Of a stretch of DNA of 64,000 bases, positions 18,016-48,271 are shown in pieces. The stretch is from Halobacteriovoraceae bacterium (GTDB lineage Bacteria; Bdellovibrionota; Bacteriovoracia; Bacteriovoracales; Bacteriovoracaceae), in contig PASN01000018.1 in the NCBI GenBank assembly GCA_002711995.1, positions 1 through 64,000 on the forward strand, written 5' to 3'. The position numbers were made by a program, and so were the translations under genes. How positions within the stretch are numbered: the first letter of the stretch is position 1; every line of letters starts with the position of its first letter. The notes under the pieces are model-generated. The model saw nothing but the letters and a program-made list of their open reading frames with translations. It made no database searches and was not told the DNA's origin.

Positions 18016-21000
18016 CTAACATGGATCGATTTGCTGCGCAATATGTTTTGAGAATTCTAGTAGAGTGGACGGCTCAACTATTTCAGCAAACTTGCACTGT
18101 ACACTGAAGTCGGGATTGATTTTGTATATCTTAGGTCTCTCCATGAAAAAGGCAATGACCTTGTCTCTTAGCTGACCTTTTTGCTCAAGCTCGTCCTTAT
18201 TAAAACCTAAGGTGATGATTTTCTTCCCTACTTTGACGCTTTTCAAACTAATGCGGGACAAATGAATGCGGCTTTCTAATATTAGGATTAAATTGCTCAA
18301 ACTTTGAGGATGAAGACCGTATATATCCTGTAACTCTTCACCAATAGATTCCAAACTCTCAACAGAGTTTGCGTTGGAAAGTCTCTTATAAAATTTTAAA
18401 CGACTCCCTGTGTCGGTAATATAAGTTTCTGGGATGTTGGTGTGAAATGGAGTTTGCATCTCTATAAGTTGTTTATGAGATATCGTTTCATTTTTGATTT
18501 CTGCAATGGCCTCTTGTAAGAGCTCCATGTAAAGCTCAAGACCTATATTTCCAATGTGACCGGATTGCTCGGCTCCAAGTATGTCCCCAGATCCCCTGAT
18601 TTCCAAATCAGATGTGGCCAGTGAGAAACCAGCGCCTATATCAGCATAGGTTTGTAGTGCTCTTAATCTTTTTGTTGCGACACTTGATAAAAGCCTATCA
18701 TGGGGAACCATAAAATAGGCGTAAGCTTTTTTATCAGAACGACCAATTCTGCCTCTAAGCTGATGCAGCTGAGATAGGCCATAGGTGTCCGCCCTATCAA
18801 CAATCATTGTATTGGCAGAAGGAATATCAATCCCAGACTCAATAATTGTGGTAGAGACAAGGACGTCAAATTTTCTTTCGTAAAATTGGGTAATGCGCTT
18901 TTCAAGTTCTTTTTCAGGCATTTGTCCATGAGCAAACATAACTCTCGCATTGGGAGAGAGCTTTTTAATTTTACCAGTAAACTCCTCCATATCATGGACT
19001 TTGTTATGAACAACAAAAACTTGCCCTCCTCTGGTGAGCTCCTTATCAATTGCTCTTTGCAATGTGACTGGATCTTCTTTAATCAAGTAAGTTTTAATTG
19101 ATTGTCTTTTTGGAGGTGGCGTTTGTATAAGCGAGAAATCTTTGATTCCAAGAAAAGACATTTGAAGTGTTCTAGGAATAGGTGTAGCCGTCATAGTAAG
19201 ACAGTCTATGTTCTGTTTTAAAGTTTTGAGTTTTTCTTTGTGTGACACACCAAATCTTTGTTCCTCATCAATAATCAAAAGTCCAAGATCTTGGAATTTT
19301 ACTTTGTCTGAAAGAAGCTTATGTGTACCTACAATAATATCTATTTTTACTTCTTCAAGATTGGCCAGAATCTGATTGGTTTCTTTTGTGGATTTAAACC
19401 TTGAGACGTATGCGATATTAACTGGAAAATCTTTAAAACGCTCAATCATTGTATTGTAGTGTTGAAATGCCAATACTGTGGTTGGGACGAGCACTGCAGT
19501 TTGTTTGTGATCAAGAACAGCTTTAAACGCTGCTCTCATCGCTATTTCCGTCTTTCCAAATCCCACGTCTCCACAGATCAAACGATCCATTGGCTTTTCA
19601 CTAGTCATATCATCTAGAACATCATGAATCGCTTTGATTTGGTCTTCTGTCTCTTCAAAAGGAAACTTTCTTTCAAAGTCTTCATAAATTTCATCAGGTT
19701 GAGAAAATCTAAAACCTTTCTTCAACTCTCTTTGGGCCTGGAGTTCAATCAGATCAAAAGCTAGTTTCTTAACCGATTTGGAGGCCCTTTGCTTTTCTAA
19801 GTCAAACTTCTTTGACTTGAGATTTGCAACTTTCACAGTTGCGGTGGAACTAGAATGTTTTTGAATTAAATCTAATTTATATACAGGCACATAAACTTTA
19901 TCATTGTCATGGTATTCCAAAACGATAAAGTCACCCTTTTGAGTGCCAAGTTCGATAGTTTCCATTCCAAGATACTTTCCAATTCCATGTGCCTTGTGAA
20001 CTACAAAGTCACCTACATTAAGGGATGCCAATTGGTCAGCAAAAACATCTTGAGTCTTTTTTGTTCTTTTCTTTGTCTTTGAAACTTTATGGATAAAAAA
20101 GTCTGATTCGGAAAGAAAGTAAAGTTGTTCGTTGGAGTATACAAAGCCAGCGCTAAGATCAAAGTTTAAAAACTTTATATGTTCCACCTTATTGGCGTCG
20201 TATGTTTTTAAAATATGTTTAATTTTCTCTAAGGTGGCTTCATTTTTATAAACTATCCAAACTTCTTTAGCATGTGCCTTTTCTAGAATGTTTTGGAAAA
20301 GGGCCTGGATAAAGTCTTTTTTGTTAGTTTTAGAGCTGACAAGGTTTGTATGACTTAAATATGTCTGTAAATGCTCTAGGTTGATATTTACCGTTTGCTC
20401 GTATTCATCATTTAAGTCAGTGCTAAAAGAAATGTCATTAATATTAAAACTTTCTACTTCGTGGGGAGTGTCAAAAAAATATAGATCTTCTGGGTTGGGG
20501 AATAGATCTTGAGAATCCTCTTGTTCTAAAGAAAGTTCATAAAGACCTGAGTATTCCTCTAAATTCAGATTAAACGATTTTAGTGCCTCTTCCTTGTTGA
20601 AGTAATGAAATGTAGAGGTATTGGACAAAAGTTTAAATAGAGATGTTACCTCATTAAAAAATAAAGAAAAAAACAGCGGGTAGTTTGGCGGAAAAGAGGC
20701 ATCGTCTAATTTGTCAAAAAAGCTATCTCTAAGTTCTCTTTTATATCTATGATTAAGTGGTGGCCTAGGAAGTTTACTTTTAAAGTTAGTAATATTTTCA
20801 GCGTTTATTGCCTGCCCGGACATGGGATAAACAGAAATTTGTTCCAAAGGTTTATTCTTATTCGTTCGCATTGTGGCAGGATCAATTTCAAAGATCTCTT
20901 CAATCATGTCGTCAAAATAATGTATCCTAAATGGATTCCCTGAAAGCGGGTACAAATCGAATATTTCACCCTTCTTTGAAAAGGTGCCAGGCTCTTCGGT

Positions 21001-21486
21001 TGAAGGCATTGATTGATATCCCATAGAAGTTAGCCTGGAAGCAAGATCTTCTGGTGAAATAATGTCACTTACTTCAATTGTTAAATTCCCTGTGGTGAAA
21101 AAACGTTGTTTCGGAACTTTAAGCATAATGGCGCTTAAAGTCGTTACAATTAAATAAGGCTGTTGGGTGTTGTGCAGCTTGTTTAGTGAAAGAAGCCTGT
21201 CGTTTAAACTTCTTTCAGAACAGAAAGCTCCACTGTATATGTTTTGACCTAAATCCGGATAATAAAGAGTTGGTTGAAAGGATTTAACTGAGGCGAAGAA
21301 CTTTTCTGCTTGTTCTTCATGCTCAAAAACATATACCTGATGCTTTTTATCACTTTTAATGGACTGTCTTATGAACTTTTCATACAGCAGAAACCATTGT
21401 TCTTCACTTACTCCGTTAATTGTGAAGCTGGTATCAGGATTAGATCTACGATGTTCCAGAATTTTAGATTCAAGTTTTAGTTTCAT
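18016..21486 (-). CDS. mfd: Transcription-repair coupling factor Mfd
   Basis: Mfd removes RNA polymerase stalled at lesions and recruits UvrA. The 1156 residues include an N-terminal UvrB-like module, the RNAP-interaction domain starting near LNVGDFVVHKAHGIGKYLG, and a RecG-like translocase. Its helicase motifs are Walker A CGDVGFGKTEIA, DEEQRFG (motif II), TATPIPRTLQ (III), SGIDIPSANT and QLRGRIGRS (VI). The C-terminal TRCF domain follows. The gene is the first of the minus-strand block and diverges from the membrane-protein operon at 21568. Confidence 0.97.
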   Translation of the reverse strand: MKLKLESKILEHRRSNPDTSFTINGVSEEQWFLLYEKFIRQSIKSDKKHQVYVFEHEEQAEKFFASVKSFQPTLYYPDLGQNIYSGAFCSERSLNDRLLSLNKLHNTQQPYLIVTTLSAIMLKVPKQRFFTTGNLTIEVSDIISPEDLASRLTSMGYQSMPSTEEPGTFSKKGEIFDLYPLSGNPFRIHYFDDMIEEIFEIDPATMRTNKNKPLEQISVYPMSGQAINAENITNFKSKLPRPPLNHRYKRELRDSFFDKLDDASFPPNYPLFFSLFFNEVTSLFKLLSNTSTFHYFNKEEALKSFNLNLEEYSGLYELSLEQEDSQDLFPNPEDLYFFDTPHEVESFNINDISFSTDLNDEYEQTVNINLEHLQTYLSHTNLVSSKTNKKDFIQALFQNILEKAHAKEVWIVYKNEATLEKIKHILKTYDANKVEHIKFLNFDLSAGFVYSNEQLYFLSESDFFIHKVSKTKKRTKKTQDVFADQLASLNVGDFVVHKAHGIGKYLGMETIELGTQKGDFIVLEYHDNDKVYVPVYKLDLIQKHSSSTATVKVANLKSKKFDLEKQRASKSVKKLAFDLIELQAQRELKKGFRFSQPDEIYEDFERKFPFEETEDQIKAIHDVLDDMTSEKPMDRLICGDVGFGKTEIAMRAAFKAVLDHKQTAVLVPTTVLAFQHYNTMIERFKDFPVNIAYVSRFKSTKETNQILANLEEVKIDIIVGTHKLLSDKVKFQDLGLLIIDEEQRFGVSHKEKLKTLKQNIDCLTMTATPIPRTLQMSFLGIKDFSLIQTPPPKRQSIKTYLIKEDPVTLQRAIDKELTRGGQVFVVHNKVHDMEEFTGKIKKLSPNARVMFAHGQMPEKELEKRITQFYERKFDVLVSTTIIESGIDIPSANTMIVDRADTYGLSQLHQLRGRIGRSDKKAYAYFMVPHDRLLSSVATKRLRALQTYADIGAGFSLATSDLEIRGSGDILGAEQSGHIGNIGLELYMELLQEAIAEIKNETISHKQLIEMQTPFHTNIPETYITDTGSRLKFYKRLSNANSVESLESIGEELQDIYGLHPQSLSNLILILESRIHLSRISLKSVKVGKKIITLGFNKDELEQKGQLRDKVIAFFMERPKIYKINPDFSVQCKFAEIVEPSTLLEFSKHIAQQIDPC

Positions 21487-21567: not shown

Positions 21568-21861
21568 ATGGATGTTAAAAATTTTTCTATATTACTGGGG
21601 ATCATATGTTTGTTTTCCCTTTTTTTCACCTCTTTATTTGTGAGGCCTGAAAAAGAGTGGAGAAGAAAAATTTTTACCGAGGCGCAAATTAATTATAGAA
21701 ATTACTTATTAAGTCTATCCAACATTTTTCTAGGCGCAATTCTTTTTGATCATATATTCATAAATAGATTGGAGCTTGACCCAATAATTGTCTTCTCAAT
21801 ATTAGGTTTTTTACTTTACTCCAATCTTCCAGCATTCGGGAGAGGCAATGGTCGACTATAG
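21568..21861 (+). CDS. Unrecognised small membrane protein, first gene of complex I-like operon
   Basis: The 97-residue protein has about three hydrophobic segments (7-25, 47-62, 70-88) separated by a basic stretch (RPEKEWRRKIF). I cannot place it in a family; it does not show the NuoA signature. It opens an operon of tightly overlapping membrane-protein genes and overlaps the next gene by 14 bp, so it is probably a subunit or assembly partner of the same membrane complex. The 81-bp gap upstream, shared with mfd, must hold the promoter. Confidence 0.7.
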   Translation: MDVKNFSILLGIICLFSLFFTSLFVRPEKEWRRKIFTEAQINYRNYLLSLSNIFLGAILFDHIFINRLELDPIIVFSILGFLLYSNLPAFGRGNGRL

Positions 21862-22666
21862 CTACCTTTTAGGTGGAATGGTGTTAACTGCTTTCTTACC
21901 TATGATCTCAGCTTTTTTTTCTTTTTTGCCTAAACTATCACAGATTAGAAAGGGCACAGGGGTGGTTACCCAAGCAAACTTGGCTACGGCCAGGAATGTT
22001 GTTGGCAGTATTAAGTCTAAAGAGTGTGTATCTCTTGAAGTGTTTTTTATGTATATAACTCTGTCGGCCCTATCAACATATGCTTTCTCCTTTTTGTTTA
22101 AGGTTTTCACCTATAAGCTGTCTCTTGTTGCCACAGAACTATTTTTTACATTTACAGCTTTATTTACTTTTTCATCTCTTACAATATTTACATTGATAAA
22201 ATTTTATAAAGCAACGAGGGTTAATCTGGGTGAACAGGTGCAATATTCAGCGTTGGGTTTCACCTCACTATTGCTAGTTTTCACAAGCGCTGCGGCAGGC
22301 GGGCTAGAAAGAAGTTTTGACATTTTGGACTCAGTTCTAATTTTAGCATTCCAAGTAGTTCTTTATTTTTGTTTCTTAAGAAATATTGAAAGAAGAGATT
22401 TTTCCGATGCGTTCGAGTTTAGAGTTTTGTCCTGTACAAGAATGGCGCTAAATGCAAGTTTCATATCTCTAATACTAATTTCATCCAACCTCTTTTTAAA
22501 AAATGAGTTTTTTATAGCACTGTTGCTAAGCGTTTTATTTATTGAGGTTTTCATGAACGTTGTAAAGTTTGAATCGGTGGAAATGAAATCACATTATATT
22601 AATAAAAATATAGATAAGATCATTGTAAGCTTCCTTACAGTAGTTTTGGCTCTGAAGGTTATCTAA
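21848..22666 (+). CDS. Polytopic membrane protein, tentatively NuoH/HyfC-like
   Basis: The 272-residue protein has seven or eight predicted helices. After the first helix comes FLPKLSQIRKGTGVVTQANL, resembling the NuoH/HyfC segment where a basic R-x-GP-x-x-Q motif follows helix 1. The rest has the right length and helix pattern, but conserved acidic quinone-site residues are not evident. The resemblance is by eye. In complex I and group 4 hydrogenases this subunit joins the membrane arm to the peripheral arm, yet no such arm is encoded nearby. The ATG has a GGAGAGG site and lies inside the previous gene. Confidence 0.65.
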   Translation: MVDYSYLLGGMVLTAFLPMISAFFSFLPKLSQIRKGTGVVTQANLATARNVVGSIKSKECVSLEVFFMYITLSALSTYAFSFLFKVFTYKLSLVATELFFTFTALFTFSSLTIFTLIKFYKATRVNLGEQVQYSALGFTSLLLVFTSAAAGGLERSFDILDSVLILAFQVVLYFCFLRNIERRDFSDAFEFRVLSCTRMALNASFISLILISSNLFLKNEFFIALLLSVLFIEVFMNVVKFESVEMKSHYINKNIDKIIVSFLTVVLALKVI

Positions 22667-22667
22667 G

Positions 22668-23093
22668 ATGTTTGAATTATTTTTAGGGTTTCTAATTTTA
22701 ATTTTAGGTTTAGTGTCCTTTGGTGCTAAAAGTCTTAGGTTAGCCTTAGGTGCAGACCTCTGCATAAGTTTTTTAATGTTGATTTTATTATCCACTCACC
22801 TACCTGCTTCAACATCTCTGATAATATTCACAATTTTGGTGCTGTTCAATTTTTGCTATTTTACTTCAAAAAAGAAGAGCATACCCATAGCGAGAGTTGA
22901 AAGTAAAAATAAACCTATCAAAATCGCAAATTGGACAGTTGCTACAATTCTTCTGTCCATTCTAAGCTATTTTGTTTTCAGCTCTAATGACCTAAATGTT
23001 TCCTGGAATATTGTTCAGAAAGATCAATATAATATATTGCTTTCCATTTTTATTTTGGTCATGTTTTTTAGAGGAGGTCAAAAGTGGAATTAG
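22668..23093 (+). CDS. Small membrane protein, possibly NuoJ/HyfE-like
   Basis: The 141-residue hydrophobic protein has about five helices: two pairs separated by a basic stretch around residues 67-85 (TSKKKSIPIARVESKNK). Length and position, between an NuoH-like and an NuoK-like gene, match NuoJ in complex I operons, but the sequence alone is not diagnostic. The start is 1 bp past the preceding stop. It overlaps the following gene by 10 bp. Confidence 0.6.
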   Translation: MFELFLGFLILILGLVSFGAKSLRLALGADLCISFLMLILLSTHLPASTSLIIFTILVLFNFCYFTSKKKSIPIARVESKNKPIKIANWTVATILLSILSYFVFSSNDLNVSWNIVQKDQYNILLSIFILVMFFRGGQKWN

Positions 23094-23353
23094 TCTTATG
23101 TGTTCTACTACTTTTGGGTTTTCTCAATTTTTTTGGAACAAAATATGTTTCCAGTAGATATAAAGCTATAGTGTACTTTGGGCTTTTTTTGATCATCTTT
23201 AGCATCACAAAGGATCCAAATATTAAAAACTCTAGCAGTGAAATTGTTTACTTTTTTATAGCCGTCTCTTTACTAGGTTTTGGCGGACTCTATACTTATT
23301 TGTTTAAACATCAAAGCGAAAACCCCGAAGACTTAAATGATTTTGACGATTAG
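23084..23353 (+). CDS. Small three-helix membrane protein, possibly NuoK/MrpC-like
   Basis: The 89-residue protein starts at a GTG with a very strong GAGGAGG ribosome-binding site inside the previous gene. It has three helices and an acidic tail (SENPEDLNDFDD). NuoK and MrpC have the same size, three-helix topology and a polar tail after helix 3. The usual membrane-embedded Glu residues of NuoK are not clearly kept (one Glu lies in SSSEIVYFFI before helix 3). Treated as likely but unproven. Confidence 0.6.
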   Translation: MELVLCVLLLLGFLNFFGTKYVSSRYKAIVYFGLFLIIFSITKDPNIKNSSSEIVYFFIAVSLLGFGGLYTYLFKHQSENPEDLNDFDD

Positions 23354-24221
23354 CATTCTAACCTTCCTATTTCTTTTCTTGTTCAAGTCACGTGAAAATC
23401 TGGCAATGGCGATCTATTGTGGGCTACTTCCATTTGCGATGTATTTTGAGCAAACGGCTTTGTTCGGTCAGAGTATAGCTGTGGAGTTTTATTTAATAAG
23501 TATAACGACCATACTTCTAGCTTGTTCATTTGGAATCAAACATTACAAAGACATTTCTTTTCAATTGAAAAATGCAGCACCAATATTGCTGTTTTTGGGT
23601 TTGAGCTCAATACAAAGCGATCTTGCATATTTGATATGTATATTTGGTTTGTATCTTATCTTTTGTCATAACCAATATGTTAAGCTTGAAAAACCACTAT
23701 ACGATTATTGGCCTCTGTATTTATTATCAATTAGTTTTATACAAATTACACTTGAATATGGCCTTCCTTCGATTGGCTATGAAAAAACTGTGATTGTAGG
23801 CTTGCTGGTTATTGGCATTTTTCACAACCTATTGTTGCAAAGGCTGGAAAGATTTTTGATATGTATGGCCATAAGTTTATTAGCAATTAATGTTTTTGAT
23901 TTAAAGATCTCGGCCACAATAACTGTCTGGATATTTTTGAACATGATAGTGTTCTTAAAACTGAATAAGGATATTAGAGACAAAGTGGAAACCCATTGGA
24001 AGCATTACAAAAAACTTAAAGATATCTGCATCTTTTGGGAATTAAAAACAAACTTAAAACAAATGGATTTGAATAGGGCTTTAGTTAAAAAGGAAGAAGG
24101 AGATCAAAACTCAAAAAGTCTTTTTTTAGCCCATGACATTGAGAATATCCAGTTAATAAATCTAAAGGTATTGGTATTTATTGCAGCATTTGTTTTGTTT
24201 GTAACCTTAGGGAGCTTTTAA
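23337..24221 (+). CDS. Polytopic membrane protein of complex I-like operon, function unknown
   Basis: The 294-residue protein has about eight helices, then a cytoplasmic stretch of about 70 charged residues (KDIRDKVETHWKHYKKLK to QNSKSLFLAHD) and a final helix ending VTLGSF. The long polar loop before the last helix recalls the extended C-termini of antiporter-like subunits but is much shorter. No family motif is recognised. It overlaps the upstream gene by 17 bp and shares one base with the next start, so it is translated as part of the same unit. Confidence 0.7.
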   Translation: MILTISILTFLFLFLFKSRENLAMAIYCGLLPFAMYFEQTALFGQSIAVEFYLISITTILLACSFGIKHYKDISFQLKNAAPILLFLGLSSIQSDLAYLICIFGLYLIFCHNQYVKLEKPLYDYWPLYLLSISFIQITLEYGLPSIGYEKTVIVGLLVIGIFHNLLLQRLERFLICMAISLLAINVFDLKISATITVWIFLNMIVFLKLNKDIRDKVETHWKHYKKLKDICIFWELKTNLKQMDLNRALVKKEEGDQNSKSLFLAHDIENIQLINLKVLVFIAAFVLFVTLGSF

Positions 24222-25261
24222 TGCTTAATCTGTTATTTTTAATTGCAGGGATCAGCTCTTCAATAAAATCTCTGAGGGCGTGGAAACACTTTTATTTATG
24301 TGTTTTTGGAGTAGCTTCTCTATTTGCTTTTTATTTAACTTACGGTTATGAAGGGTACTCTTTAACGTGGGGTTCGGTGGTAAACGTTTCCATGCCTCCC
24401 AACTCCTATTCTCTTTACTTTTCTGTGGTTGTTATCCTCTCTTTAGGCTTTTTCAAGTTTAAGACTAAACAGGCCGCTGGAATAGCAATCTTAGCTCCTA
24501 TCGTGGTTCAAAACGCATCACTCTTATTGCTTGGGCTTGTCTTAATTTTAGCAGAGGCATTAGATAGAAATTATAGATCAATTCTTAGGGCCTTGTTCTC
24601 ACTTATTTTTGGTATATTATTTTTCTCTGAGACTGGAACGATTGCCTCTATTAATGTCTATGCTTATTTTGGCGCTTTTTGTTTAAGTGTACTTGCATTA
24701 TTTATAAATAATAGCTCAAGCTTAAAAAGCTCTTCAGGTAGTGCGATGTTTAACGCGTTACTTATCCCAGTTTTGATTGTGAAACTTGCACAGGCACTCG
24801 CCTTCTCAAGCACTCCTATTATAATTTTAGGATGTATTCTTCTTTGTATCATTTGTATAAACACATTTAAACAAAGTCTAAGCGTGTCGTTATCACTTGC
24901 CTCACTTTTAAGCTTGGCTTTTCTTAGTAGAAACTATGACCACTTTTTAGTGTTGATAGCTGCTGTTGGTACAATGCTTCCTTGGTTGGGAGAAAGAGTG
25001 GTTCTGGCCAATTATTTAAAAGCATTACCCTTTCTAGCTGTAAGAGTTGTTTTGGGTTTAATAATCTACATTTTGTTAAGAGTTATGTTTATATGGGACA
25101 TTACCCTATTTTCTTTATCCATTCTTCTGCTGTTTTTGTTATCCGGTACGATAAATAAAAGTATCTTCAATTTTGCAAAGAGTATCGAAGGAAGATCATT
25201 AACAGCCATCGTGGGTTTTATCTTTGTTTGTCTAACAGTTGGCGTGAGGAGCCTATTTTAA
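24221..25261 (+). CDS. Polytopic membrane protein, tentatively divergent antiporter-like (NuoL/M/N) subunit
   Basis: The 346-residue protein has about eleven helices. The stretch QNASLLLLGLVLILAEAL resembles helix 5 of proton-antiporter-like subunits, where a conserved Glu lies in a FLELxSL-type context. Further on, IVKLAQALAF and FKQSLSVSLSLASLLSLAFL resemble the helices around the lysine-bearing segment (KRLLAYSSI), but that Lys is missing. It may be a degenerate proton-channel subunit. This is similarity by eye only. Stop and start codons of neighbours overlap (TAATG). Confidence 0.6.
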   Translation: MLNLLFLIAGISSSIKSLRAWKHFYLCVFGVASLFAFYLTYGYEGYSLTWGSVVNVSMPPNSYSLYFSVVVILSLGFFKFKTKQAAGIAILAPIVVQNASLLLLGLVLILAEALDRNYRSILRALFSLIFGILFFSETGTIASINVYAYFGAFCLSVLALFINNSSSLKSSSGSAMFNALLIPVLIVKLAQALAFSSTPIIILGCILLCIICINTFKQSLSVSLSLASLLSLAFLSRNYDHFLVLIAAVGTMLPWLGERVVLANYLKALPFLAVRVVLGLIIYILLRVMFIWDITLFSLSILLLFLLSGTINKSIFNFAKSIEGRSLTAIVGFIFVCLTVGVRSLF

Positions 25262-26451
25262 TGGAAGTCTCTATCATTAATATTGTTTTTTTCCTGAATT
25301 GTGTTTTAGCTGCAATTCTAAGGAATTACAAAAAGGCCGTTGGATTGCTAATAGCAATGGTCAGTCTACTGTTTGTATTAATATATTTTGGATTTATTGG
25401 CTGGCAGGATAATTCATCACTTTTACTGGCATCTGGGGTCGGATTTTTCTATTTGTTGCATGAATTTCTTAAAAAGGAAGCAGGAGTCCAAAGGGAGTTA
25501 TCGATATTCTTTGGCTTTTTCCCATTATTATTAGTGACATCTTCAAACTTATTAACCTTTTCAGTTTTTTTATTTATTTTTGAAGCCTTTAAGGCCCTTA
25601 CCTGGTGGAATTCTAAGGGGGATGAGGCGAAGTGGCTTCAAAGACTCCAATATGTCGATAGCTTAAAGTTCTTCGTAATTTTCATATCTCTCTTTTTCGC
25701 AATGGTGTCTTTTGATCAGATTGAAATTCCAAGTAGAGTCCTGCCAGATAAGACAACATTAGTGGTGCTTGGTACTTGGTTTTTTCTAGGGACTCTATAC
25801 TTGGGTGTGGTTGATAGTATTAAGGACATGAAAAGAAAGATTCACAAATCTCATGAGTCAAACCCTAATCTTTTTATTGTGCTATCACATTGTTTTATAC
25901 CCCTGCTTGTGATGGTGAGAGTTCATGGGCTGATGGAAAATATGGATTTCGATCTTTATCAAGATGGACTGCGTTTAACATCAGTGCTTGTCTTTATGAC
26001 GATATTAAATGTTATTCTAGGTTTGAAAGAGCGTAATTCGAAGTATATAGAATACTATAAAATCATATTTCTACTCACAACTCTGTTATTTCTATTCTTG
26101 GGAGATTTCTCAATAGTTATGTTTATGACTTTGAATCTATTTTGCTCAAGCTTTGCTTATATTCTTGAAGTTAAAGATACCCCAAAGCTAAAACAGTTGG
26201 GTGGATTTCTACTAACACCATCCCCGTACTCCCCTATTTATATTTTTATCGTGTTTCATGCCTTTAACTACGAAGGTCCTTTAAACATTTGGTTGCGTGC
26301 CGTTATACTGGCAGGCCTGTTATTGGGCTATAATTTAAAAGGAAAGCAAACCGGTTCCTTATTGATGACTCGTAATTCCAGTGACTTATTGCCTGTGGCA
26401 GGGCTGGCCCTCTTTGTCTCAATCCTTTTTATTGCTAAAATAGCTTTATGA
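25261..26451 (+). CDS. Polytopic membrane protein, tentatively NuoN/MrpD-like antiporter-type subunit
   Basis: The 396-residue protein has about eleven helices. It is the member of the cluster most like Proton_antipo_M proteins: LLLVTSSNLLTFSVFLFIFE corresponds to helices 4-5 (S-x-NLLxFFVFLELxSL) with the Glu retained, followed by a loop and EAKWLQRLQYVDSLKFFVIF, resembling the EAxxKYF segment. The ATG at 25261 overlaps the preceding stop (TAATG); an upstream TTG would add eleven residues but is less likely. The four-base overlap ATGA leads into the TPR gene. Confidence 0.65.
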   Translation: MEVSIINIVFFLNCVLAAILRNYKKAVGLLIAMVSLLFVLIYFGFIGWQDNSSLLLASGVGFFYLLHEFLKKEAGVQRELSIFFGFFPLLLVTSSNLLTFSVFLFIFEAFKALTWWNSKGDEAKWLQRLQYVDSLKFFVIFISLFFAMVSFDQIEIPSRVLPDKTTLVVLGTWFFLGTLYLGVVDSIKDMKRKIHKSHESNPNLFIVLSHCFIPLLVMVRVHGLMENMDFDLYQDGLRLTSVLVFMTILNVILGLKERNSKYIEYYKIIFLLTTLLFLFLGDFSIVMFMTLNLFCSSFAYILEVKDTPKLKQLGGFLLTPSPYSPIYIFIVFHAFNYEGPLNIWLRAVILAGLLLGYNLKGKQTGSLLMTRNSSDLLPVAGLALFVSILFIAKIAL

Positions 26452-47677: not shown

Positions 47678-48271
47678 ATGTCTTTTGTAAATTACCATAC
47701 CAAAGAAATTAACTGCAAAATTGTCTATTACGGGCCAGGACTGGGAGGCAAGACAACTAACATTCAACATGTTTATCAAAAAGTGTCTTCCAAAGCTAAA
47801 GGGCAAATGGTTACTTTGAATACTGAAAATGAAAGAACATTGTTCTTTGATTTTCTACCGTTAGACCTAGGCCAGATTCGAGGCTTTAAAACTAGATTTC
47901 ATCTCTACACAGTGCCTGGACAAGTGTTCTACGAGGCCAGCAGAAAACTTATTCTGCGTGGAGTTGATGGCATCGTTTTTGTAGCTGATAGTCAGGTGGA
48001 GAGAATGGAGTCGAATATTGAGAGCTTGGAAGGCCTGAAGAAAAATCTTGCAGAACAAGGTCATGATATCGCAAAGCTTCCTATTGTAATGCAGTGGAAC
48101 AAAAGGGATCTTCCCAATATTGCTTCGACCCATGACATGCAACAAAAATTGAATACATTGGATGTACCAACTTTTGAAGCATGCGCTTTGAAGGGAGAAG
48201 GTGTGTTTGAGACTTTAAAAATGATTAGCAAACTTGTTCTTCTAAACATCAAAGGTGGATTGGAAGATTAA
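47678..48271 (+). CDS. mglA: MglA-like Ras-family GTPase
   Basis: The 197-residue protein has P-loop [10 protein letters not shown] (19-28), switch region with [12 protein letters not shown], the MglA-type VPGQVFY in place of DTAGQ, the guanine-specificity motif QWNKRDLP, and ALKGEGV. MglA controls cell polarity and gliding in Myxococcus and is needed for prey entry in Bdellovibrio. The start has AAAGATG spacing close to the preceding stop. Together with its roadblock neighbour it probably forms a polarity switch. Confidence 0.93.

Follow-up and report, generated by a model that had tools for sequence, protein, structure and literature searches.

Complex I (NDH-1, Nuo) normally ranks among the most conserved membrane enzymes. 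An 11-subunit form without E, F and G occurs in cyanobacteria and in the archaeal Fpo. Here we compare with complex I and its relatives an operon found in the window, the whole 64,000-nucleotide stretch of Halobacteriovoraceae DNA that was analysed. The operon, referred to below as set 2, resembles complex I in its subunit set, in the gene order A-H-J-K-L-M-N and in its topology pattern. Its less eroded orthologues in other genomes match the complex I Pfam families, and B-, CD- and I-like partners are encoded elsewhere in the genome. The window set differs from complex I in the loss of the NADH module, the N2 ligands, the quinone-site His/Tyr and any Pfam match, in shortened L, M and N proteins, and in its extreme divergence. 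The 11-subunit form is represented here by set 1, a second group of membrane genes found in relatives. Set 1 shares with set 2 the loss of E, F and G and the separation of the membrane genes from B, C, D and I, but it retains the N2 and quinone motifs and evolves slowly, whereas set 2 does neither.

Group 4 NiFe hydrogenases (Hyf, FHL, Mbh) have a homologous membrane arm. Set 2 differs in being split over two loci and in its CD-like protein, whose listed matches include NuoD models and no hydrogenase model. Mrp shares the antiporter-like subunits, but its A-G arrangement is absent from the operon; a complete-looking Mrp operon lies elsewhere in the window genome (L006:10132-15624). We ruled out an origin from Mrp because that operon is separate. 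An origin from hydrogenase-4 was ruled out because CD matches NuoD and set-2 relatives have the NADH module; the kinship with hydrogenase-4 suggested by a sequence-only reading of the window thus gives way to complex I. We are confident that the operon is an eroded complex I set. That it forms the membrane arm of a duplicated complex I ("Nuo2"), retained as a non-pumping complex, is in our view the probable explanation, held less firmly than the identity itself.

The operon in the window

Seven membrane-protein genes on the forward strand at 21568-26451 overlap or nearly touch, as the sequence-only reading had described, and all seven ORFs are present. They encode hydrophobic proteins of 97, 272, 141, 89, 294, 346 and ~395 aa, in that order, with roughly 3, 8, 4, 3, 7, 12 and 10 predicted helices. 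The gene mfd (18016-21486, minus strand) lies on one side, and a gene for a tetratricopeptide repeat (TPR) protein followed by serS on the other. The features are as follows (TM, transmembrane helices; the clade is defined in the next section).

21568-21861, + strand: NuoA-like, set 2; 97 aa, 3 TM, strongly eroded; first in the A-H-J-K-L-M-N order beside mfd; hhalign of the clade against eroded set-2 A, 89%
21848-22666, + strand: NuoH-like, set 2; 272 aa, 8 TM; assigned by position and TM count; identity 30% to G001 and 15% to G002 of the same genus
22668-23093, + strand: NuoJ-like, set 2; 141 aa; set-2 J HMM, E 2.6e-7; hhalign to eroded J, 94%
23084-23353, + strand: NuoK-like, set 2; 89 aa, 3 TM; top match of the set-2 K HMM, E 1.3e-5
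23337-24221, + strand: NuoL-like, set 2; 294 aa, ~7-8 TM; assigned by position, order and the graded length series, with no sequence-level match
24221-25261, + strand: NuoM-like, set 2; 346 aa; assigned by position and order only
25264-26451, + strand: NuoN-like, set 2; 395 aa, ~10 TM by hydropathy; top match of the set-2 N HMM, E 1.4e-6; structure model with broken helices
26448-29540, + strand: TPR protein with a single TM; N-terminus weakly GYF_2-like (E 0.0057, below cut-off); flank marker

The NuoN-like gene most likely starts at the ATG at 25264, as opposed to the TTG at 25228 given in the ORF list. None of the seven proteins scored above cut-off against Pfam or NCBIfam, and a promoter and terminator scan of the operon gave the same result as shuffled sequences. 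The TPR gene was found in 113 of 129 family genomes and adjoins serS in many of them. We considered this TPR-GYF neighbour as a further subunit; genomes without set 2 (G019, G025, G070) still carry it, and it is probably not part of set 2. Searches of phage records with the TPR protein and of viral contigs with gene N returned nothing. Elsewhere in the window (47678-48271), a gene run after the DNA polymerase III gamma/tau gene includes a small GTPase of the Arf/Ras type (MglA-like).

Two tandem sets between mfd and the TPR gene

We located the corresponding loci of relatives by anchoring on mfd. In G001 (L005), from the same genus, the operon genes adjoin mfd with 25-44% identity, compared with 74% for mfd itself; this comparison excludes the last gene, before which the G001 contig ends. 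Additional genomes, from the same genus and from neighbouring genera, also carry the operon. Since it is kept beside mfd in these genomes, it is not a chance arrangement.

Most Bacteriovoracaceae/Halobacteriovoraceae genomes carry two tandem nuoA-H-J-K-L-M-N sets between mfd and the TPR gene or serS. Set 1 is a normal, conserved, full-size complex I membrane arm (A ~141, H ~397, J ~177, K 101, L ~725, M ~510 and N ~488 aa). Set 2 ranges across the family from normal through intermediate to unrecognisable. In G015 all seven set-2 proteins match Pfam: PF00507 (1e-27), PF00146 (4e-105), PF00499 (7e-29), PF00420 (2e-26) and, for L, M and N, PF00361 three times (6e-81, 2e-73 and 8e-38). The set 2 of G021, G029 and G032 resembles that of G015 where it is assembled, and intermediate forms occur in G023, G060, G034, G118, G063, G030 and G018. 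Pairwise search does not recognise set 2 in the remaining genomes, and in G019 and G008 it is absent altogether. Along this series the L protein falls from 675 aa (canonical, 17 TM) to 214 aa. The 214-aa L is found in G006 (L041, L120), where set 2 consists only of A, H, J, K and this protein; M and N seem lost and B-CD-I stay. One genome of Halobacteriovorax marinus has set 1 together with an eroded set 2.

The window contains an extreme eroded set 2. Its clade (G000, G001, G002, G094, G096, G097, G066, G016 and G059) has near-constant small sizes and all seven ORFs intact in about nine genomes; the NuoL-like protein measures ~270-296 aa in eight of the nine. Set 1 was not seen at the mfd locus in this clade. 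In a tree of the TPR protein (midpoint root, many forks unresolved), the three grades of set 2 (intact, intermediate, eroded) are interleaved among the genomes, so erosion probably proceeded in parallel.

The gene order, whose conservation in relatives the earlier reading had proposed to check, is syntenic with the canonical set 2 of G015 and others. That reading was right in essence about a complex I-type membrane arm, although it overlooked A and one of L, M and N, the full set being A-H-J-K-L-M-N. It had named a lack of profile matches to complex I families as the outcome that would refute it; the window proteins alone give none, but their less eroded syntenic relatives match PF00507, PF00146, PF00499, PF00420 and PF00361 strongly.

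Homology of the window proteins to complex I subunits

We compared profiles stepwise along the erosion series using hhalign. Set 1 matched canonical set 2 at 98.7-100% for all seven subunits, and canonical matched intermediate set 2 at 98.5-100%. Only H (97.7%) and N (81%) connected canonical with eroded set 2, and J (94%) and A (89%) connected eroded set 2 with the window clade, K reaching 43%. Direct profile-profile comparison of the window clade with the canonical subunits found nothing. When G000 and G001 were left out, the set-2 HMMs picked the correct window gene as the best among 326 window ORFs for J, K and N, giving these three weak profile support, and missed it for A, H, L and M. 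HMMs from sister genera alone recovered none of the seven. For window H, L and M there is no detectable sequence homology either to the canonical subunits, including canonical NuoH, or to the sister genera, and their homology is therefore inferred from position, order and topology. The assignment of each window gene to a subunit thus comes partly from its syntenic position and should be taken as putative at the level of the single gene.

An AlphaFold model of the window NuoN-like protein (pTM 0.65) had antiporter-like subunits of complex I, Mrp, MBS and formate hydrogenlyase as all of its best 50 PDB matches, with a best E-value of only 2e-3; canonical rows stood in its alignment, so the model is not independent evidence. 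The NuoH-like protein, modelled from eroded rows alone, gave a poor structure without any match. At the columns of the conserved Glu of TM5 and the Lys of TM7, TM8 and TM12, the NuoN-like proteins of the clade have no conserved charge, as far as a weak alignment allows these columns to be placed, and no new invariant charged residue was seen in the clade. The helix-5 Glu, put forward from the window alone as a conserved feature, is Q in gene M of G001, and in gene N the clade has various residues at this position.

The absence of sequence-level homology for H, L and M of the window clade led us to ask whether the complex I arm was displaced at this locus by seven fast-evolving, unrelated membrane proteins. 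However, dozens of genomes with graded intermediates share the gene number, order, orientation and topology pattern, and the profile matches of J, K and N, the NuoN-like model and the retention of the B, CD and I genes of set 2 also speak against it. We consider such a replacement highly improbable.

Soluble partners at a second locus

The window genome encodes one PF00346 protein (CD-like), on another contig, at a second locus that is marked across genomes by a lipoprotein gene and aat. In G015 and G032 this locus reads lipoprotein-B-CD-E-F-G-I, and in G015 Pfam recognises each Nuo subunit. Most other genomes have lipoprotein-B-CD-I; diverged E, F and G are retained in G007 and G074. The window genome has the lipoprotein gene, B (131 aa), CD (514 aa) and I (154 aa), followed by a fatty-acid desaturase gene, with E, F and G missing from the locus. 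Its CD matches NuoD (5e-49) and its I matches NuoI (1e-15). The window genome (96.4% complete) gave no match to PF00146, PF01058 or PF01512, and its PF00361 matches were Mrp-type proteins only. In G015 the set-1 soluble genes (B, C, D, I) form a locus of their own, for which no counterpart was found in the window genome. In most genomes the match of the set-1 NuoD (L087:8890-10053) to PF00346 is split into 1-171 and ~196-271, which looks as though the intervening positions were altered.

The B protein of the window genome has HLTR at the N2 positions that read CCCC in G015. The N2 ligands are absent in all clade genomes that have a B gene and present in several other genera. In CD, the C-terminal core is conserved and NPSSFLSVG stands where the quinone site of NuoD has HPxxHG, with the His and Tyr lost; among the sequences aligned, the quinone His/Tyr motif is intact only in G015 and G032. 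The I protein retains both 4Fe-4S motifs (CVSCGLCVEIC and CVQCSLCEQVC; Pfam Fer4), and both CxxCxxCxxxC motifs are present in all eight clade I sequences, from seven genomes, at ~30% identity. The operon had been described as having no electron-transfer module; given that B, CD and I are kept with the I motifs intact, a remnant of such a module does exist, outside the window. The order of loss is the quinone site and the NADH module before N2, with the clusters of NuoI last in the window clade.

All 38 genomes that combine a membrane set 2 with a resolved soluble locus also have a CD-like gene (raw counts, uncorrected for kinship). Four genomes (G025, G070, G144 and G127) retain B-CD-I with no membrane set 2 at their mfd locus, so the coupling is strong, not absolute; in G019 and G008 both B-CD-I and set 2 are gone.

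Three further observations concern this locus. The lipoprotein gene upstream of nuoB2 (L085:6424-7920) is uncharacterised, encodes ~9 Cys, occurs family-wide and stays in G019 and G008 despite their loss of B-CD-I. G096 (L173, L174) has two copies of the lipoprotein-B-CD-I locus, in an assembly listed as 9% contaminated. The desaturase gene (L085:10329-11414) directly follows the NuoI-like gene in the window genus, G094 and several other genera. We considered whether the I-like protein passes electrons to the desaturase and do not favour this, because the desaturase lies apart from I in several clade genomes and persists where I has lost its cysteines or is gone.

With the NADH module, N2 and the quinone residues gone, a normal redox-driven pump is very unlikely. 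We also weighed an enzyme that still translocates ions by an altered chemistry, with ferredoxin driving it through I, for instance, and different membrane charges in use. The two clusters retained in I, the four B ligands kept in several genera outside the clade and the conserved C-terminal core of CD would suit it, but the window clade has lost the N2 ligands together with the His and Tyr of the quinone site and the Lys residues canonical for antiporter-like subunits, and it shows no new invariant charge. We rate it as a distinctly unlikely explanation.

Selection and retention

Canonical set 2 has a pairwise dN/dS (NG86) of about 0.05, with values of about 0.03-0.13 in the genus of G015, similar to set 1. 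In other genera, eroded set 2 gives about 0.1-0.8 (mostly 0.15-0.6), and its alignments often have few gaps; these ratios are rough because synonymous sites are near saturation. Between G004 and G108, set 1 is 90-97% identical. The set-2 L proteins share only 34% identity, yet their alignment has 12 gapped columns and no frame is broken. We compared predicted helices with neutral simulations run to the same identity with stops purged. L has 13 helices against a neutral mean of 6.4 (maximum 11), N has 10 against 4.8 (maximum 8) and M has 8 against 4.5 (maximum 8). With helices above the neutral expectation and frames unbroken, ORF integrity and membrane character are selected there, and individual residues are hardly constrained. 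Both the ratios and the simulations cover relatives of the window genus, which itself has no close pair.

These results bear on the possibility that Nuo2 is merely decaying, being redundant with Na+-NQR and set 1, functionless now and undergoing loss in parallel lineages. Set 2 changes very fast, E, F, G, N2 and the quinone residues were lost repeatedly, set 2 is wholly gone in G019 and G008, and its M and N are gone in G006. The window genome has an NQR2/RnfD-type gene, and Na+-NQR has been reported from Bacteriovorax marinus (PMC4014512). However, the seven ORFs are unbroken clade-wide with near-constant sizes, dN/dS in sister lineages is below 1, TM content exceeds the neutral expectation, and both 4Fe-4S motifs of I survive at ~30% identity. 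Pure decay is possible, but it fits poorly because ten genes, their sizes, the membrane helices and the I motifs are retained; we consider it unlikely, if less so than altered ion translocation.

A retained, non-pumping Nuo2 as the probable explanation

Building on the observed synteny, graded erosion, ligand loss and retention, and on the selection that keeps ORFs and topology intact in relatives, we return to the retained non-pumping complex as our preferred explanation. Nuo2 would be a second, duplicated complex I of Bacteriovoracaceae/Halobacteriovoraceae, whose A, H, J, K, L, M and N subunits the operon would encode. In most family lineages E, F and G, its NADH module, are gone along with the residues of the quinone site; the window clade has additionally lost the N2 ligands of B, the canonical antiporter charges and about half of the L protein. 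What remains is a ten-gene set, the seven membrane genes and the B-, CD- and I-like genes at the second locus. We infer that Nuo2 would still assemble and be anchored in the membrane, without redox-driven proton pumping. The I-CD-B stub may act as a docking, electron-relay or redox-sensing platform, with the membrane arm mainly a scaffold. This role, in a complex with two 4Fe-4S clusters, is our favoured but tentative suggestion.

A literature search found no description of such an arrangement. The terms Bdellovibrio, Bacteriovorac-, degenerat- and remnant are all absent from a 2025 survey of complex I (PMC12361115). Complex I relatives of this kind escape profile-based surveys.

One copy of complex I has eroded past recognition in predatory bacteria and their relatives, yet seven membrane and three soluble genes are retained. 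The graded series at one locus acts as a natural dissection, showing which complex I parts can go, and in what order. The function of set 2 can be tested, because a genome of a named species, Halobacteriovorax marinus, has both set 1 and an eroded set 2. It is conceivable, though we put it somewhat short of probable, that the family as a whole turned a duplicated complex I to a non-respiratory purpose, as a ten-subunit pseudo-complex I that is retained for its architecture and its two 4Fe-4S clusters and evolves nearly free of sequence constraint. The finding suggests a respiratory enzyme that is turning into something else, family-wide.
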